Shown here piece by piece: positions 31,641-42,525 of a stretch of DNA of 46,280 nucleotides. The notes beneath the pieces are model-generated. The model was given only the letters and a program-made list of their open reading frames with translations, did not search any database and was not told the origin of the DNA. The position numbers and the translations under genes were made by a program. Position 1 is the stretch's first letter. Every line of letters begins with the position of its first letter. Origin of the DNA: Opitutaceae bacterium UBA2377 (lineage in GTDB: Bacteria; Verrucomicrobiota; Verrucomicrobiia; Opitutales; Opitutaceae); assembly GCA_002344205.1 (NCBI GenBank), contig DDSZ01000042.1:45166-91445 (forward strand). The letters run 5' to 3'.

Positions 31641-35131
<3,491 letters not shown>

Positions 35132-35133
<2 letters not shown>

Positions 35134-37326: not shown

Positions 37327-39189
37327 TCAGGACGGGAGGGCGAAGCCGACCGGCTGGCGGAGCAGGCGTTGGATTTCGGAACGTTCTTTTAAGAGTGAAA
37401 TTGGGTCAGAATTACTGTCCGCACCGGGGTTGGCTAAAGCAAGTTCTATTTGCCGCAGGCGTGGTTCCAAGGCCCGGGCGCGCAGCAGACGGAGCCCTTC
37501 TTGGGCGACTTTGCCGGGATCATCGAAATTGGGGGTATCGAAGAGGAGCGAGGCGACAAGCGATTTTTCCTCAGGGGTTTCCAAAAGTGAGTCCAAATGA
37601 TCCCGCCCGGGCCAGTGGCCGTGCTCGAATTCGCCGAGGAAACGGTTGAGCAGCACACCGGCCGTGTGGCCGGTATCGATCCAATCGTGGGGCAGGGCGT
37701 GGCTGAGCGGCTGGCCGACGGCTTCAAAATGCAGGCAGAGCAGGAGCAGGTGCAATTCCGGGGTGACGCCGGGGGTGCCCGGCGTTTTCGCGGGCGCGGC
37801 GTCCGGAGTCGGGCGTTGGGCTTGCTGGCGGGCGGAGCGGACGGTCTGGCTCTGAAAATCCCGCTGGAGGGCGGCGAGGGGCAGTTGCAAGTGGCGGGCG
37901 GTCTCCGCCAGAAAGCCGGCCCGGGTGACCTCGGATTCCGCGGCGAGGATGAATTCCATCACGGTTTGCGCCGCCCGGGATTTTTGTTCGGAGCCGGATT
38001 GATCGGGCGCGGGCAGGGCCGTGTGGCAGGCAAAGGCCATGGCGGACATGGCATCGCGTTTCAGCTCGGCATAGACGGGGAGGCCGCGTTCCAGGAACAG
38101 CACGTCGGGATCCACCTTGTCGGCGCCGGCGAGTTGCAGAAAACGCACTTCCAGCCCGGCCTTGAGCGCCATGGGCAGAAAACGGAGCGCGGCCTTCTGC
38201 CCGGCGGCATCGCTGTCGAAGAAGCACTCGACCTGGGTGTGATAGCGGCGAAGGAGGACGAGCTGCGTCTCGGTGATGGAGGTGCCCTGCGGGGCGATGG
38301 CGGTCTTGAGCCCGACGCTCCAGCAGCGGAGGGCGTCGAGTTGGCCCTCGACGAGGACGAACGGGTGCCCTTCGCCGGCGTGGCTGCGGGCGCGGTCGAG
38401 ATTGAAGAGCAGGTTGCCCTTGGTGAAGATGGGCGTCTCGGGCGAGTTGACGTATTTGGCCTCCCGCGCGGGATCGTCCGCCGGGGTGAGGTCGGTCTGG
38501 CGGGCGGTGAAGGCCACGACGCGGCCCTGATGGTCGCGGATGGGAATCATCAGCCGGCCGCGGAAGCGGGGCTTCAATGAACCGAGCCCGATGACGGCAC
38601 CCTCGCGGATGAAAAACAGCCCGCACTGGCGCAGGGCGTCCTCGGAGAATTTGCGTTTCAGCAGCAGCGCCCCGAGGCCGTCGTCGGCCGGCGCGGCGGC
38701 ACCGATTTTGAATTCCTCGGCGAGTCCGGGCGTGAAGCGGCGCTTCTCCGCCCAGTAGGTGCGCATGAATTCACCGGCCGAACCGCCGCCCTTGTAGGCT
38801 TGGTGGTAGTGCTCGGTCGCGAGTTCGTGGATCTCGAAAATCTCCTGCCGCAGCGAGCGTTCCTCCCGGCTGGGACCGCCGGAGCCTTCCTCGTATTCGA
38901 TGACGATGCCGAAACGCTGGCCCAGCGCCTCCACGGCCTCGGTGAAGCCGAGCTGCTCGGTTTCACGCACAAAGCTGATCAGGTCGCCGGCCTTGCCGCA
39001 GCCAAAGCATTTGTAGAAACCCTTGTCCGGGTCCACGTGGAAGGACGGAGTCTTTTCCTGATGAAAAGGACAGAGACCCTTCAGCCGTGTGCCGCCGGCC
39101 TTGCGCAGCGTCACTACCCGGGACACGACGTCGCCGAGGTTGACCCGCAGCTTGAGGTCACGGACACAGGTGGGCTTGATGGCGGGCAT
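37327..39189 (-). CDS. dnaG: DNA primase DnaG
   Basis: This 620-residue primase has a CHC2 zinc finger, with Cys40 and His43 in LCPFHQEKTPSF and Cys61 and Cys64 in YKCFGCGKAGDL. The primase core has IPIRDHQGRVVAFTARQ. The TOPRIM domain has FVLVEGQLDALRCWSVGL (the usual EGYMD here EGQLD) and ECFFDSDAAGQKAAL. A helical C-terminal region follows that likely binds the helicase. It makes RNA primers for replication. It is followed by rpoD, 24 bp away. Its ATG at 39189 is divergent from a DUF362-like gene, with 109 bp between the starts. Confidence 0.97.
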   Translation of the reverse strand: MPAIKPTCVRDLKLRVNLGDVVSRVVTLRKAGGTRLKGLCPFHQEKTPSFHVDPDKGFYKCFGCGKAGDLISFVRETEQLGFTEAVEALGQRFGIVIEYEEGSGGPSREERSLRQEIFEIHELATEHYHQAYKGGGSAGEFMRTYWAEKRRFTPGLAEEFKIGAAAPADDGLGALLLKRKFSEDALRQCGLFFIREGAVIGLGSLKPRFRGRLMIPIRDHQGRVVAFTARQTDLTPADDPAREAKYVNSPETPIFTKGNLLFNLDRARSHAGEGHPFVLVEGQLDALRCWSVGLKTAIAPQGTSITETQLVLLRRYHTQVECFFDSDAAGQKAALRFLPMALKAGLEVRFLQLAGADKVDPDVLFLERGLPVYAELKRDAMSAMAFACHTALPAPDQSGSEQKSRAAQTVMEFILAAESEVTRAGFLAETARHLQLPLAALQRDFQSQTVRSARQQAQRPTPDAAPAKTPGTPGVTPELHLLLLCLHFEAVGQPLSHALPHDWIDTGHTAGVLLNRFLGEFEHGHWPGRDHLDSLLETPEEKSLVASLLFDTPNFDDPGKVAQEGLRLLRARALEPRLRQIELALANPGADSNSDPISLLKERSEIQRLLRQPVGFALPS

Positions 39190-39298
39190 GAACGGGCGCG
39201 GCGGTGCGGAAAGAATGCACTTTCATCCCGGCGCAGGGACTGTCAAGTTTCGCGGCTCCCGCAGGAAACATCCGCGGTTTCCAGGCGACATATTCTCC

Positions 39299-40321
39299 AT
39301 GCGTTTTTGCAAACTCCCGGTCCTCTTTCTTCTCGCCTTCGCCTGCGTGCAGGCGGCTCCGTCCGCCCCGGCACCCACCGAGCCGGTGTGGGTGGCCGCA
39401 CTGCCGGGCTTCGGCGAGGAAGCCTACCGGCAGCAGGTCGAGGCCCTGATCACCGCCTACGAGGGGGCGACCGGCCACCGGCTCGTCCCCGGAGCCAAGG
39501 GCAAGGTCGGGCTGAAGATCTACGCCGACTCGGGCCCCGGCATGGCCACGCCGATACCCTTGGTGAAAGCGGTCATCAGCGCGCTGGTGCGCCGGGGGTT
39601 TGAACCGCAGAACGTTTTCCTCGTGGGCCTGAACCAGCTCCGGCTCCGCATGACCGGCTACCTGCCGTCGCTCGTCTCGGGCGATTCGCCCTTCAAGGGC
39701 CATCAGGTGTATGTGCTCGAGTCGGGGAAGTTTTACGACCCGGTGTGGTTTTACGACAGCCCGCTGCCCGAGCGCTTCAACCCCATCTTTGCGGAAGCCC
39801 GGGCCGGCGCCGCGGCCGAGGCCGCGGACAAGGACGAAGACCGCAAGAGCTTCTTGGCGACCCCGCTCTTCCTCGACGCCGATTTCTGGATCAACCTGCC
39901 GGTTTACACCGACCACCCGACGCTGGGCATCAACGGCGCGCTGGTGAACGCCACGCTGTGGAACGCCTCCAACACCTCGCGCTTTTTCCGCAGCCCGGCC
40001 TCGGCGCCGGCCGCCGTGGCGGAGATGAGCGCGATCCCCGAGCTGCGCGAGACGTGGGCCTTCTCCATCGTGAGCCTGCAGCACTACCAGTTTGTCGGCG
40101 GCCCCTACTTCAACTCGCTCTATTCCGTGTCGGAACCCGTGCTTTGGCTGAGCCGCGACCCGGTCATGCTCGACGCGCTGATGCTTGAGCGCATCAACCG
40201 CCAGCGGCGGCTGACGGGCTTCAAGCCGGTCTCCGAGGATATCCGCACGCTGGAATTCGCCGAGATGCTCGGGGTCGGCTCCACGCAGACGGCGGCGGTG
40301 CGGAAGCTGCGGGTGGACTGA
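39299..40321 (+). CDS. Secreted DUF362-like protein
   Basis: This 340-residue protein has a signal peptide (MRFCKLPVLFLLAFACVQA, likely cut after AQA-type small residues about 18-20). The mature part has GKVGLKIYADSGPGMATPIPLVKAVISALVRRGFEPQNVFLVG and DFWINLPVYTDHPTLGINGALVNATLWNASN. This KVGLK-TP-LV-AV-L--G pattern resembles DUF362 proteins. No Fe-S cluster motif is seen. The function is unknown. The frame opens at 39089, but the signal peptide start at 39299 is clear. It is divergent from dnaG and followed by nuoA after 46 bp in the same direction. Confidence 0.75.
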   Translation: MRFCKLPVLFLLAFACVQAAPSAPAPTEPVWVAALPGFGEEAYRQQVEALITAYEGATGHRLVPGAKGKVGLKIYADSGPGMATPIPLVKAVISALVRRGFEPQNVFLVGLNQLRLRMTGYLPSLVSGDSPFKGHQVYVLESGKFYDPVWFYDSPLPERFNPIFAEARAGAAAEAADKDEDRKSFLATPLFLDADFWINLPVYTDHPTLGINGALVNATLWNASNTSRFFRSPASAPAAVAEMSAIPELRETWAFSIVSLQHYQFVGGPYFNSLYSVSEPVLWLSRDPVMLDALMLERINRQRRLTGFKPVSEDIRTLEFAEMLGVGSTQTAAVRKLRVD

Positions 40322-40367: not shown

Positions 40368-40739
40368 ATGCCTTCCGACTACCTGCCATTCCTCATCCAG
40401 GCCGTGCTGGCCGCGGGGATTGCCGCCGTGATCATCGGCGCGAGCCACCTCATCGGCCAGCGCACCCGGCGCAACGCCATCAAGGACTCCGCCTACGAGT
40501 GCGGCGTCCCGGCCGAAGGGCTGGTGCGCACGCGCTTCTCGGTGAAGTTCTACGTCACGGTGATGCTCTTCATCCTCTTCGACATCGAGGTGGTCTTCCT
40601 CATCCCGTGGGTCTTCATCCACCGCGAATTTCTGGCCAACCACATCCCGATCCTCGGCCCCGTGCTGTTCTTCATCGGCGTGATCGTGCTCGGGCTTTTC
40701 TACGAGGTGCGCAAGGGCGCGCTGGAGTGGGAGCGCTGA
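40368..40739 (+). CDS. nuoA: NADH-quinone oxidoreductase subunit A
   Basis: This 123-residue membrane protein matches NuoA: three hydrophobic helices (about 6-28, 64-86 and 92-113), DSAYECGVPAEG with the conserved Cys, then RFSVKFYVTVMLFILFDIEVVFLIPW and YEVRKGALEWER. It is one of the seven membrane subunits of complex I. Unusually it is alone: no nuoB or other nuo gene follows, and the next gene is an EIIA/DAC fusion. The other subunits must be elsewhere. The start is the ATG at 40368. Confidence 0.93.
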   Translation: MPSDYLPFLIQAVLAAGIAAVIIGASHLIGQRTRRNAIKDSAYECGVPAEGLVRTRFSVKFYVTVMLFILFDIEVVFLIPWVFIHREFLANHIPILGPVLFFIGVIVLGLFYEVRKGALEWER

Positions 40740-40829: not shown

Positions 40830-42170
40830 ATGCGGCTTGAAAAAATCATCGCGCGCAGCCGCGTCGTGGACCTGCACAGCGTCACCCTCGAGGGCGCGCT
40901 GGAGGAGCTGTTGGCGGCCTGCGTGGACAATTTCCCGGACCTGAAGCCCGAGGCGTTGCTGCGCGGCCTGCTGGCGCGCGAGAGCACGATGACCACTTAC
41001 CTCGGCCTCGGCGTCGCGCTGCCGCATGTCCGGGTGAAGATGAACCGCCGCTACGTGCTCGCCATCGGCCGCAGCCGCGCGGGCATCCGGCACGACGGCG
41101 CGAAGGACGATGAGCGGGTGCGCCTCATCTTCATGCTCATCGCGGGGCAGAAGGCGCGGGATTACCTGCAGGTGCTGGCCTCCATCGCCCGGCAGGTGCG
41201 CGAGCAGGAGTTGGTGGACAATCTCGTGGGTGCGCCCGATCTCGACGCCCTGCACGAGCGGCTCCTCGGCGGCTTCGGCGGCATCCGCCCGGTGCAGGCC
41301 CAGCAGAACCGGATCAACCGGCTCATGTTCAACGAGGCCGTGCGCGTGGCCCGGGGCGCGGAGTGCGGCGCGATCATGGTTTTTGGCGACACCTTTGTGG
41401 GCGGCATCCAGGCGGGCGTGCTGCCCGCGCGGTTCAAGACCATTCTCGTCACGCGCAATCCCATCGAGCCCAGCGAGGACCACCGTGAGTTTGCCGAGAC
41501 GATCCAGGTGCGATCCTTCTCCACCCAGCGCATGGCCCAGTTGCGCAGCGCCATCCTGGTCGCGCTCACGCGCGGCATCGTTACCTTTTCCGACCGGATC
41601 TGCTGCCTCGGCGGCGTGACGGGCAGCAACCAGTTCGACACCCTGGCGGTCGTGGACATCGAGCGCGAATTCCAGTCGCTCATCAAAGGCGACAGCGAAC
41701 TGCTGCCTGCCGATGTAAAGCCGGAGGTGCTCGAGCGGGTGATCGCCGTCGCGACCGAACTTGCGGTCGAGGGCCGCGAAGGCCGGCCGGTGGGCTGCTT
41801 CTTTGTCGTGGGTGACACCGAGCGTGTCACCAAGCTCAGCAAGCCCTTGGTTCTTAATCCGTTCCACGGTTACAAGGAGGAGGATCGCAACATTCTCAAT
41901 CCGTTCATGGACGAGACCGTGAAGGAGTTTTCCTCGATTGACGGGGCCTTCGTTATCAGGGGCGACGGGGTGGTGGAATCCGCCGGCAGTCTCATCCAGG
42001 CGGTTGATAATGAACGCACGCTGCCGAGCGGGCTGGGCAGCCGGCATGCCGCGGCCGCGGCCGTGAGCGTGGTGGCCGAGTGCATCGCGATCGTCGTTTC
42101 GTCCAGCACCAGTCAGGTGATGCTTTTCCGCCGGGGAGTGATGCTGCAATTGACCGAGAAACGGCGCTGA
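40830..42170 (+). CDS. PTS EIIA-like / PK-C-like / diadenylate cyclase (DAC) domain fusion protein
   Basis: This 446-residue protein joins three parts. Residues 1-145 are a PTS EIIA type-2 (fructose/nitrogen) domain with the phosphorylation-site His66 in LGLGVALPHVRVK. Residues about 155-290 resemble a pyruvate-kinase C-terminal-like fold (RLMFNEAVRVARGAECGAIMVFG). Residues about 300-440 resemble a DisA_N/DAC domain, with DGAFVIRGDGVVESAG (DGA at 371-373), then GLGSRHAAAAAVS (Arg405, His406) and CIAIVVSSSTSQVMLF. Known DACs have RHR, and here the third residue is Ala. It may make c-di-AMP under PTS control. The PK-C/DAC pair recalls archaeal DacZ (established knowledge). Function not tested. 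Confidence 0.8.
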   Translation: MRLEKIIARSRVVDLHSVTLEGALEELLAACVDNFPDLKPEALLRGLLARESTMTTYLGLGVALPHVRVKMNRRYVLAIGRSRAGIRHDGAKDDERVRLIFMLIAGQKARDYLQVLASIARQVREQELVDNLVGAPDLDALHERLLGGFGGIRPVQAQQNRINRLMFNEAVRVARGAECGAIMVFGDTFVGGIQAGVLPARFKTILVTRNPIEPSEDHREFAETIQVRSFSTQRMAQLRSAILVALTRGIVTFSDRICCLGGVTGSNQFDTLAVVDIEREFQSLIKGDSELLPADVKPEVLERVIAVATELAVEGREGRPVGCFFVVGDTERVTKLSKPLVLNPFHGYKEEDRNILNPFMDETVKEFSSIDGAFVIRGDGVVESAGSLIQAVDNERTLPSGLGSRHAAAAAVSVVAECIAIVVSSSTSQVMLFRRGVMLQLTEKRR

Positions 42171-42305: not shown

Positions 42306-42470
42306 ATGCAAGAAGTCGTCACCTTGGAATGCACCGAAGCCCGCAAAGAGGGCAAACCCGTCTCGCGCTACCTCACCAAGCGCAACAAGAAGACAGTTAC
42401 GGAACGCATTGAGAAGAAGAAGTATAACCCCTTCCTCAAGCGTCATACCCTCCACAAGGAGATCAAGTAA
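42306..42470 (+). CDS. rpmG: 50S ribosomal protein L33 (bL33), Cys-poor form
   Basis: This 54-residue protein matches bL33: [20 protein letters not shown], then [20 protein letters not shown] and [14 protein letters not shown]. The last part, [13 protein letters not shown], is the family signature. The zinc-binding Cys pairs are absent (only one Cys), so it is the C-minus form that needs no zinc. The open frame runs upstream to 42189, but the ATG at 42306 gives the normal length. It has its own strong terminator 30 bp on. It stands alone between the DAC fusion and a small convergent gene. Confidence 0.92.
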
Positions 42471-42499
42471 CCGGGAGGGTTTTCCCTTCTGACAACGCA

Positions 42500-42525
42500 A
42501 AGCCGGGCGATTCGCCCGGCTTTTT
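42500..42525 (+). terminator. Rho-independent terminator after rpmG
   Basis: AAGCCGGGC (42500-42508) pairs with GCCCGGCTT (42514-42522) with loop GATTC, and T's run to 42525. It lies 30 bp past the rpmG stop. The stop codon of the small minus-strand gene lies in the same T-tract at 42524. Confidence 0.85.

Follow-up and report, generated by a model that had tools for sequence, protein, structure and literature searches.

The window, i.e. the whole stretch of 46,280 nucleotides that was analysed, carries on its forward strand a single open frame at 40830–42170, which runs from ATG to TGA and encodes 446 aa. According to the Pfam searches, three domains follow one another in this frame, each above its family cut-off. 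The N-terminal domain is a PTS_EIIA_2 domain of the EIIANtr type (40830–41270; Pfam residues 14–145, 66 bits), and the C-terminal domain is a diadenylate cyclase (DAC, DisA_N) domain (PF02457; 41763–42140; residues 312–437, 70 bits). Between them, immediately before the DAC domain, lies DacZ_P (PF21755; 41307–41675; residues 160–282, 96 bits), whose predicted fold matches the C-terminal domain of pyruvate kinase (PK-C). All three are on the forward strand, and their order, EIIA–DacZ_P–DAC in one frame, defines the fusion family. The initial annotation had read the locus as one 446-codon frame with an EIIA head, a PK-C-like middle region and a DAC end, and each part of this reading was confirmed by the profiles or the fold; the middle region has a Pfam name of its own. 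His66, the predicted phospho-acceptor, is located in the sequence ALPHVR (codon 41025–41027, forward strand) and is aligned with the PH motif of EIIANtr. In the DAC domain, the DGA motif occupies residues 371–373 (41940–41948) and the GLGSRH motif residues 401–406 (42030–42047). According to the alignment with LmCdaA, SSST replaces SEET at residues 424–427 (42099–42110, like the two other motifs on the forward strand).

A frame of this kind could in principle be an artefact, produced by two genes overlapping by chance or by an assembly join. The search returned 79 public genome loci, titled Opitutaceae, Opitutales, Opitutae/Opitutia, Puniceicoccaceae, individual Opitutaceae genera or just Verrucomicrobia. 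All 79 match the fusion over its whole length, and in one of them (L063) the frame is interrupted. In a phylum sample of 288 genomes, the full-length fusion was found in 41 of the 43 genomes of the same order, the misses being G132 and G176. Nothing was found in favour of the artefact, and these results refute it as nearly as can be.

Outside the order, a full-length relative is present in four of 245 genomes, with 32–33% identity, and partial matches were detected in two further genomes (G144 and G275). The remaining out-of-order matches, among the matches listed, cover the EIIA part, and a few of them extend to residue 224. The best 120 of 3098 homologues (the window copy included) share the same three Pfam domains. 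A search from one distant member gave, in the best 120 of 2223 proteins, EIIA and DAC in all 120 and DacZ_P as well in 114; some of these proteins are named Spirochaetia/Spirochaetales or Chitinispirillaceae/Chitinivibrionales. Within the Opitutales, the family f15 is uneven. The fusion was matched in 17 of its 41 genomes, and the 24 genomes with no fusion match include all sampled members of the genera g46 and g181. EI and HPr are retained in nearly all of these 24. One Opitutales genome (G202, locus L137) was found to carry a second DAC protein of 296 aa, which is made of DacZ_P and DAC with no EIIA and has the cation motif SES.

The DAC class DacD is said, in an earlier review, to contain EIIA. 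In the accessible part of a 2019 paper, Opitutae proteins are given as class DacD, with Lacunisphaera limnophila, Puniceicoccaceae, Coraliomargarita and Opitutae bacteria as representatives (PMC6741144). These representatives belong to the group in which the EIIA–DacZ_P–DAC fusion is the usual DAC here; the likeness is one of taxon listing in the accessible part of that paper, rather than of accessions compared letter by letter or of a stated domain layout (PMC6741144). The fusion family is thus likely to be class DacD. The initial annotation had called such a system little-described, and this description does not hold. Pfam has a dedicated DacZ_P family, and JGI protein names among the best 120 of 3098 homologues already put the fusion into words. 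Since the 2019 class, as far as its accessible description goes, also lists Opitutae, the layout was already known. The fusion design is conserved in the Opitutales and is already catalogued. As for experimental work on the fusion, none was found in a literature search, for which most subscription journals lay outside the coverage.

The gene immediately upstream is nuoA (40368–40739, forward strand; PF00507, 99 bits). In 73 of the 79 loci it adjoins the DAC gene and has the same orientation, with a median gap of 48 bp (range 10–224), and the two genes are likely co-transcribed. Of the six other loci, one is cut short by the end of its contig, and five have no nuoA despite sufficient room. The pairing of a complex I subunit gene with a DAC gene is thus order-wide. 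Further upstream, a 410-aa frame with no Pfam match (39089–40321, forward strand) is kept ahead of nuoA in 58 of the 79 loci. Downstream lies the rpmG frame for ribosomal protein L33 (42189–42470, forward strand; PF00471, 57 bits over frame residues 43–93), whose true start is likely near 42306, so that nuoA and rpmG flank the fusion gene as first annotated. A terminator-like hairpin with a T tail follows rpmG (42499–42523, forward strand); four such sites occur in the region, against 2.2 expected by chance. The promoter scan found none.

In the Opitutales neighbourhoods, no operon link between the fusion and PTS genes was found, and the conserved neighbour is nuoA. Outside the order, in G189 and G277, the fusion is located near a zinc-ribbon–EIIA gene and an amino-acid-permease–EIIA gene, and G189 has EI nearby as well. 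In two out-of-order loci (L194 and L195), pnt transhydrogenase genes, a 281-aa zinc-ribbon–EIIA protein, a radical SAM gene and an amino-acid permease carrying EIIA at its C-terminus are grouped with the fusion, together with EI in L195; in L194, pnt and radical SAM were assigned by eye. The other two of the four distant neighbourhoods viewed (G070 and G040) show no such cluster, as judged by eye from the frames listed.

The own genome of the window protein is 3.46 Mb in 51 contigs and is 94.85% complete. According to the profile searches, the fusion is its sole DAC (11 of 14 control genomes were positive). The genome has one EI, one HPr and one HprK, and two EIIA_2 domains, one of which is the fusion gene. 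No PF02378 EIIC was detected, the EIIC search being limited to PF02378 (7 of 14 control genomes were positive). Such a gene content corresponds to a regulatory PTS. Among the 38 genomes searched, EI was detected in 35, HPr in 36 and HprK in 36, and the own genome was positive each time. The HprK control missed Bacillus subtilis, which has HprK, and HprK absences would therefore mean little. Both the His of HPr and its KSIMGLM Ser site are retained in all 20 sequences read, and the active-site TSH of EI is present in 13 of 13. A second EI occurs in several relatives, within frames of 825–914 aa that score for HPr as well. These long frames suggest a sugar-type PTS, and thus the PTS is not purely regulatory across the order.

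The best PDB relative of the EIIA domain, in both sequence and fold, is EIIANtr (PtsN) of PTSNtr. The conserved His and Arg are shared, and the own genome has EI and HPr with no PF02378 EIIC. Several differences are also observed. EIIANtr is free-standing, whereas the EIIA of the window is fused to a cyclase. The residue after the His is Val in 85 of 103 fusions, whereas it is Gly in the EIIANtr structures compared. HPr kinase is present in the window genome, which was counted as a further difference from PTSNtr. The initial annotation had proposed that c-di-AMP synthesis could be coupled to PTS phosphorylation. This idea is strengthened because the fusion is the sole DAC, EI, HPr and HprK are present, PF02378 EIIC is absent, and none of the 103 distinct Opitutales sequences outside f15 lacks His66; the activity of the enzyme and the phosphorylation of His66 we infer.

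The conservation of the EIIA head is nevertheless uneven. In the 103 distinct Opitutales sequences, defined as those outside the fast-evolving family f15, Arg50 accompanies His66 in 102. In f15, His66 is retained in 10 of 17 genomes and lost in seven. In the 120 distant proteins, the His66 position is kept in 80 and changed in 40, of which 36 have Gln. According to a tree that held five of the seven His-less f15 proteins, the losses fall on two or more independent branches of the Opitutales and in one distant clade. Gating of the cyclase by the PTS predicts that His66 and the PTS are lost together, and this prediction failed: EI and HPr were found in all seven f15 genomes that lack His66, and the HPr His and the EI TSH are intact. 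Loss of the PTS therefore does not account for the loss of His66. These losses, in which the remaining protein is kept, are what would be expected if the DAC domain makes c-di-AMP and the EIIA head acts as a structural or protein-binding module, or as a partner sensor, with no phosphorylation of His66. We regard this explanation as unlikely. In the Opitutales outside f15, His66 is invariant and Arg50 nearly so, and the f15 losses lie in a fast-evolving, long-branched part of the tree, whose details are unsure. The sequence comparison suggests that phosphorylation of His66 probably dates back to the ancestor and that some lineages can do without it.

The combination of DacZ_P and DAC is reportedly that of the DacZ superfamily (Galperin 2023). 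The window protein shares both domains (96 and 70 bits) and the PK-C fold of the middle region with this superfamily, and adds the N-terminal EIIA. Against the haloarchaeal DacZ equivalog (NCBIfam NF041371), it scores 115 bits for a cut-off of 430, and it is therefore a relative and no member. CdaA has membrane segments and DisA has extra domains, whereas the fusion has N-terminal EIIA and PK-C-like domains. The fusion has IDGA where CdaA has HDGA, according to the accessible text of the CdaA paper (PMC12974146).

The DAC domain carries the DGA and GxRHxA motifs of catalytic DAC proteins, whereas the SEET cation motif is replaced by SSST. Asp371, Gly372, Gly403, Arg405, His406 and Ser424 are invariant in the 103 distinct Opitutales sequences, and Asp371, Arg405, His406 and Ser424 are also kept in 120 of the 120 distant proteins. 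CdaA of Leptospira cannot do without the counterparts of Asp371 and Arg405, and a change of the counterpart of Ser424 lowers the conversion by about half (PMC12974146); the residues were matched by motif and spacing. The initial annotation had taken RHA in place of RHR, and VSS in place of VSE, as signs that the activity could be altered. The former is rejected as a sign of decay, because Ala is the norm at position 407 (97 of 103 distinct Opitutales sequences). The latter change is genuine and runs through the fusions of the whole lineage, and its importance had been underrated, as SEET is described in the accessible text as cation-coordinating (PMC12974146).

In the LmCdaA alignment, the SEET Glu corresponds to position 425. 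This position is Ser in 87, Ala in 13, Gly in three and Glu in none of the 103 Opitutales fusions, and is Ser, Ala or Thr in f15. In the 120 distant proteins, it is Gln in 63, Glu in 56 and Met in one. On the tree, which has long branches and a midpoint root, the residue at 425 mostly sorts by clade. The SEET Glu is retained in the EIIA-less DAC of L137, in contrast to all Opitutales fusions examined. We know of no characterised DAC with an SSST-type cation site. Either the enzyme tolerates this change, or the DACs of the Opitutales are altered. In the latter case, the domain would have lost or changed its catalysis and would act as a regulatory sensor that binds ATP or c-di-AMP, or would make another product. 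The cation-coordinating role given to SEET in the accessible text (PMC12974146) and the replacement of its Glu throughout the Opitutales fusions speak for such an altered domain. We nevertheless consider it quite unlikely, since the DGA Asp, GxRH and Ser424 are unchanged in 103 of 103 sequences, the own genome has no other DAC, and c-di-AMP riboswitches are still present in two relatives whose fusion is known to be of the SSST form.

The c-di-AMP riboswitch (RF00379) was detected under stricter filters in 10 of 57 genomes, including two of four congeners, and six were confirmed. No RF00379 match was found in the own genome, and no RNA family reached its gathering score in the window or in five own-genome loci. 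The six frames scanned downstream of the riboswitches (L201–L206) are one TrkH, in a congener, one K_trans (Kup), three AA_permease_2, the family in which we would place KimA-like K+ importers, and one Band_7. The last of these, a Band_7/SPFH frame at L202, is not what would be expected as a c-di-AMP target. Two of the ten riboswitch genomes (G007 and G313) are known to have the fusion, and in each of them it retains His66 and shows SSST. Because the riboswitches precede K+-transporter genes in relatives, two of which are known to have the fusion, the sequences argue that c-di-AMP is made in this lineage and is tied to potassium.

A second candidate output lies in the window itself. A CPA2-type Na_H_Exchanger with two TrkA_C domains is encoded at 32734–35133 (forward strand), and its end lies some 5.7 kb ahead of the DAC gene. 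The four TrkA_C proteins of the own genome, one of them cut by a contig end, were compared with the RCK_C c-di-AMP signature as given in the accessible text of its publication; none fits, the best agreeing at 4 of 7 positions (PMC10117811). The antiporter was therefore not used as evidence for a c-di-AMP target. Its tail was found in six of the 79 relative loci, a count that says little because the 6-kb flanks mostly stop short of the antiporter.

The reading that we prefer, with slightly more belief than doubt, is that the protein is a soluble c-di-AMP synthase whose output is set by phosphorylation of His66 through the EI–HPr chain. HPr would phosphorylate His66, and this would change the activity of the DAC domain, which would cyclise ATP to c-di-AMP, by way of the middle domain. 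The middle domain might also bind a metabolite, as the pyruvate kinase C domain does. The c-di-AMP produced would then turn down potassium uptake. Unphosphorylated EIIANtr acts on K+ systems in Proteobacteria. By analogy with EIIANtr, our guess is that activity is higher in the unphosphorylated form, which is expected when the PEP-to-pyruvate ratio is low. Several observations were counted against this PTS-gated synthase: SSST, the losses of His66 with no loss of the PTS, the lack of a riboswitch match in the own genome, the lack of an RCK_C fit there, the second, sugar-type EI of several relatives, and the lack of an operon link with PTS genes in the Opitutales neighbourhoods viewed.

A broader picture may be drawn tentatively, and we hold it as a possibility on the doubtful side. 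The PTS of the Opitutales would be a fuel gauge with a second-messenger output, in which phosphorylation of the EIIA head of the usual DAC sets the c-di-AMP level, and riboswitches shut or open K+ transporters. The SSST cation site would work, and the head would have been freed from phosphorylation repeatedly. If this is true, the proteins in which His66 is replaced by Ser, Asn, Cys or Gln are natural locked variants.

To our knowledge, it is not known how most diadenylate cyclases are controlled. For this family, the sequence names a likely input, namely PTS phosphorylation and hence PEP and pyruvate, and the relatives name a likely output, namely c-di-AMP riboswitches ahead of K+ transporters. 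The loss of the SEET Glu across the Opitutales fusions amounts to a natural experiment on the residues that are indispensable in a DAC. The literature connects potassium with PTSNtr in some Proteobacteria and with c-di-AMP in Firmicutes. Here the PTS and c-di-AMP are joined in one protein, and a connection between carbon state and potassium can therefore be tested directly. The fusion would likely let the fuel state of the cell steer its potassium balance.
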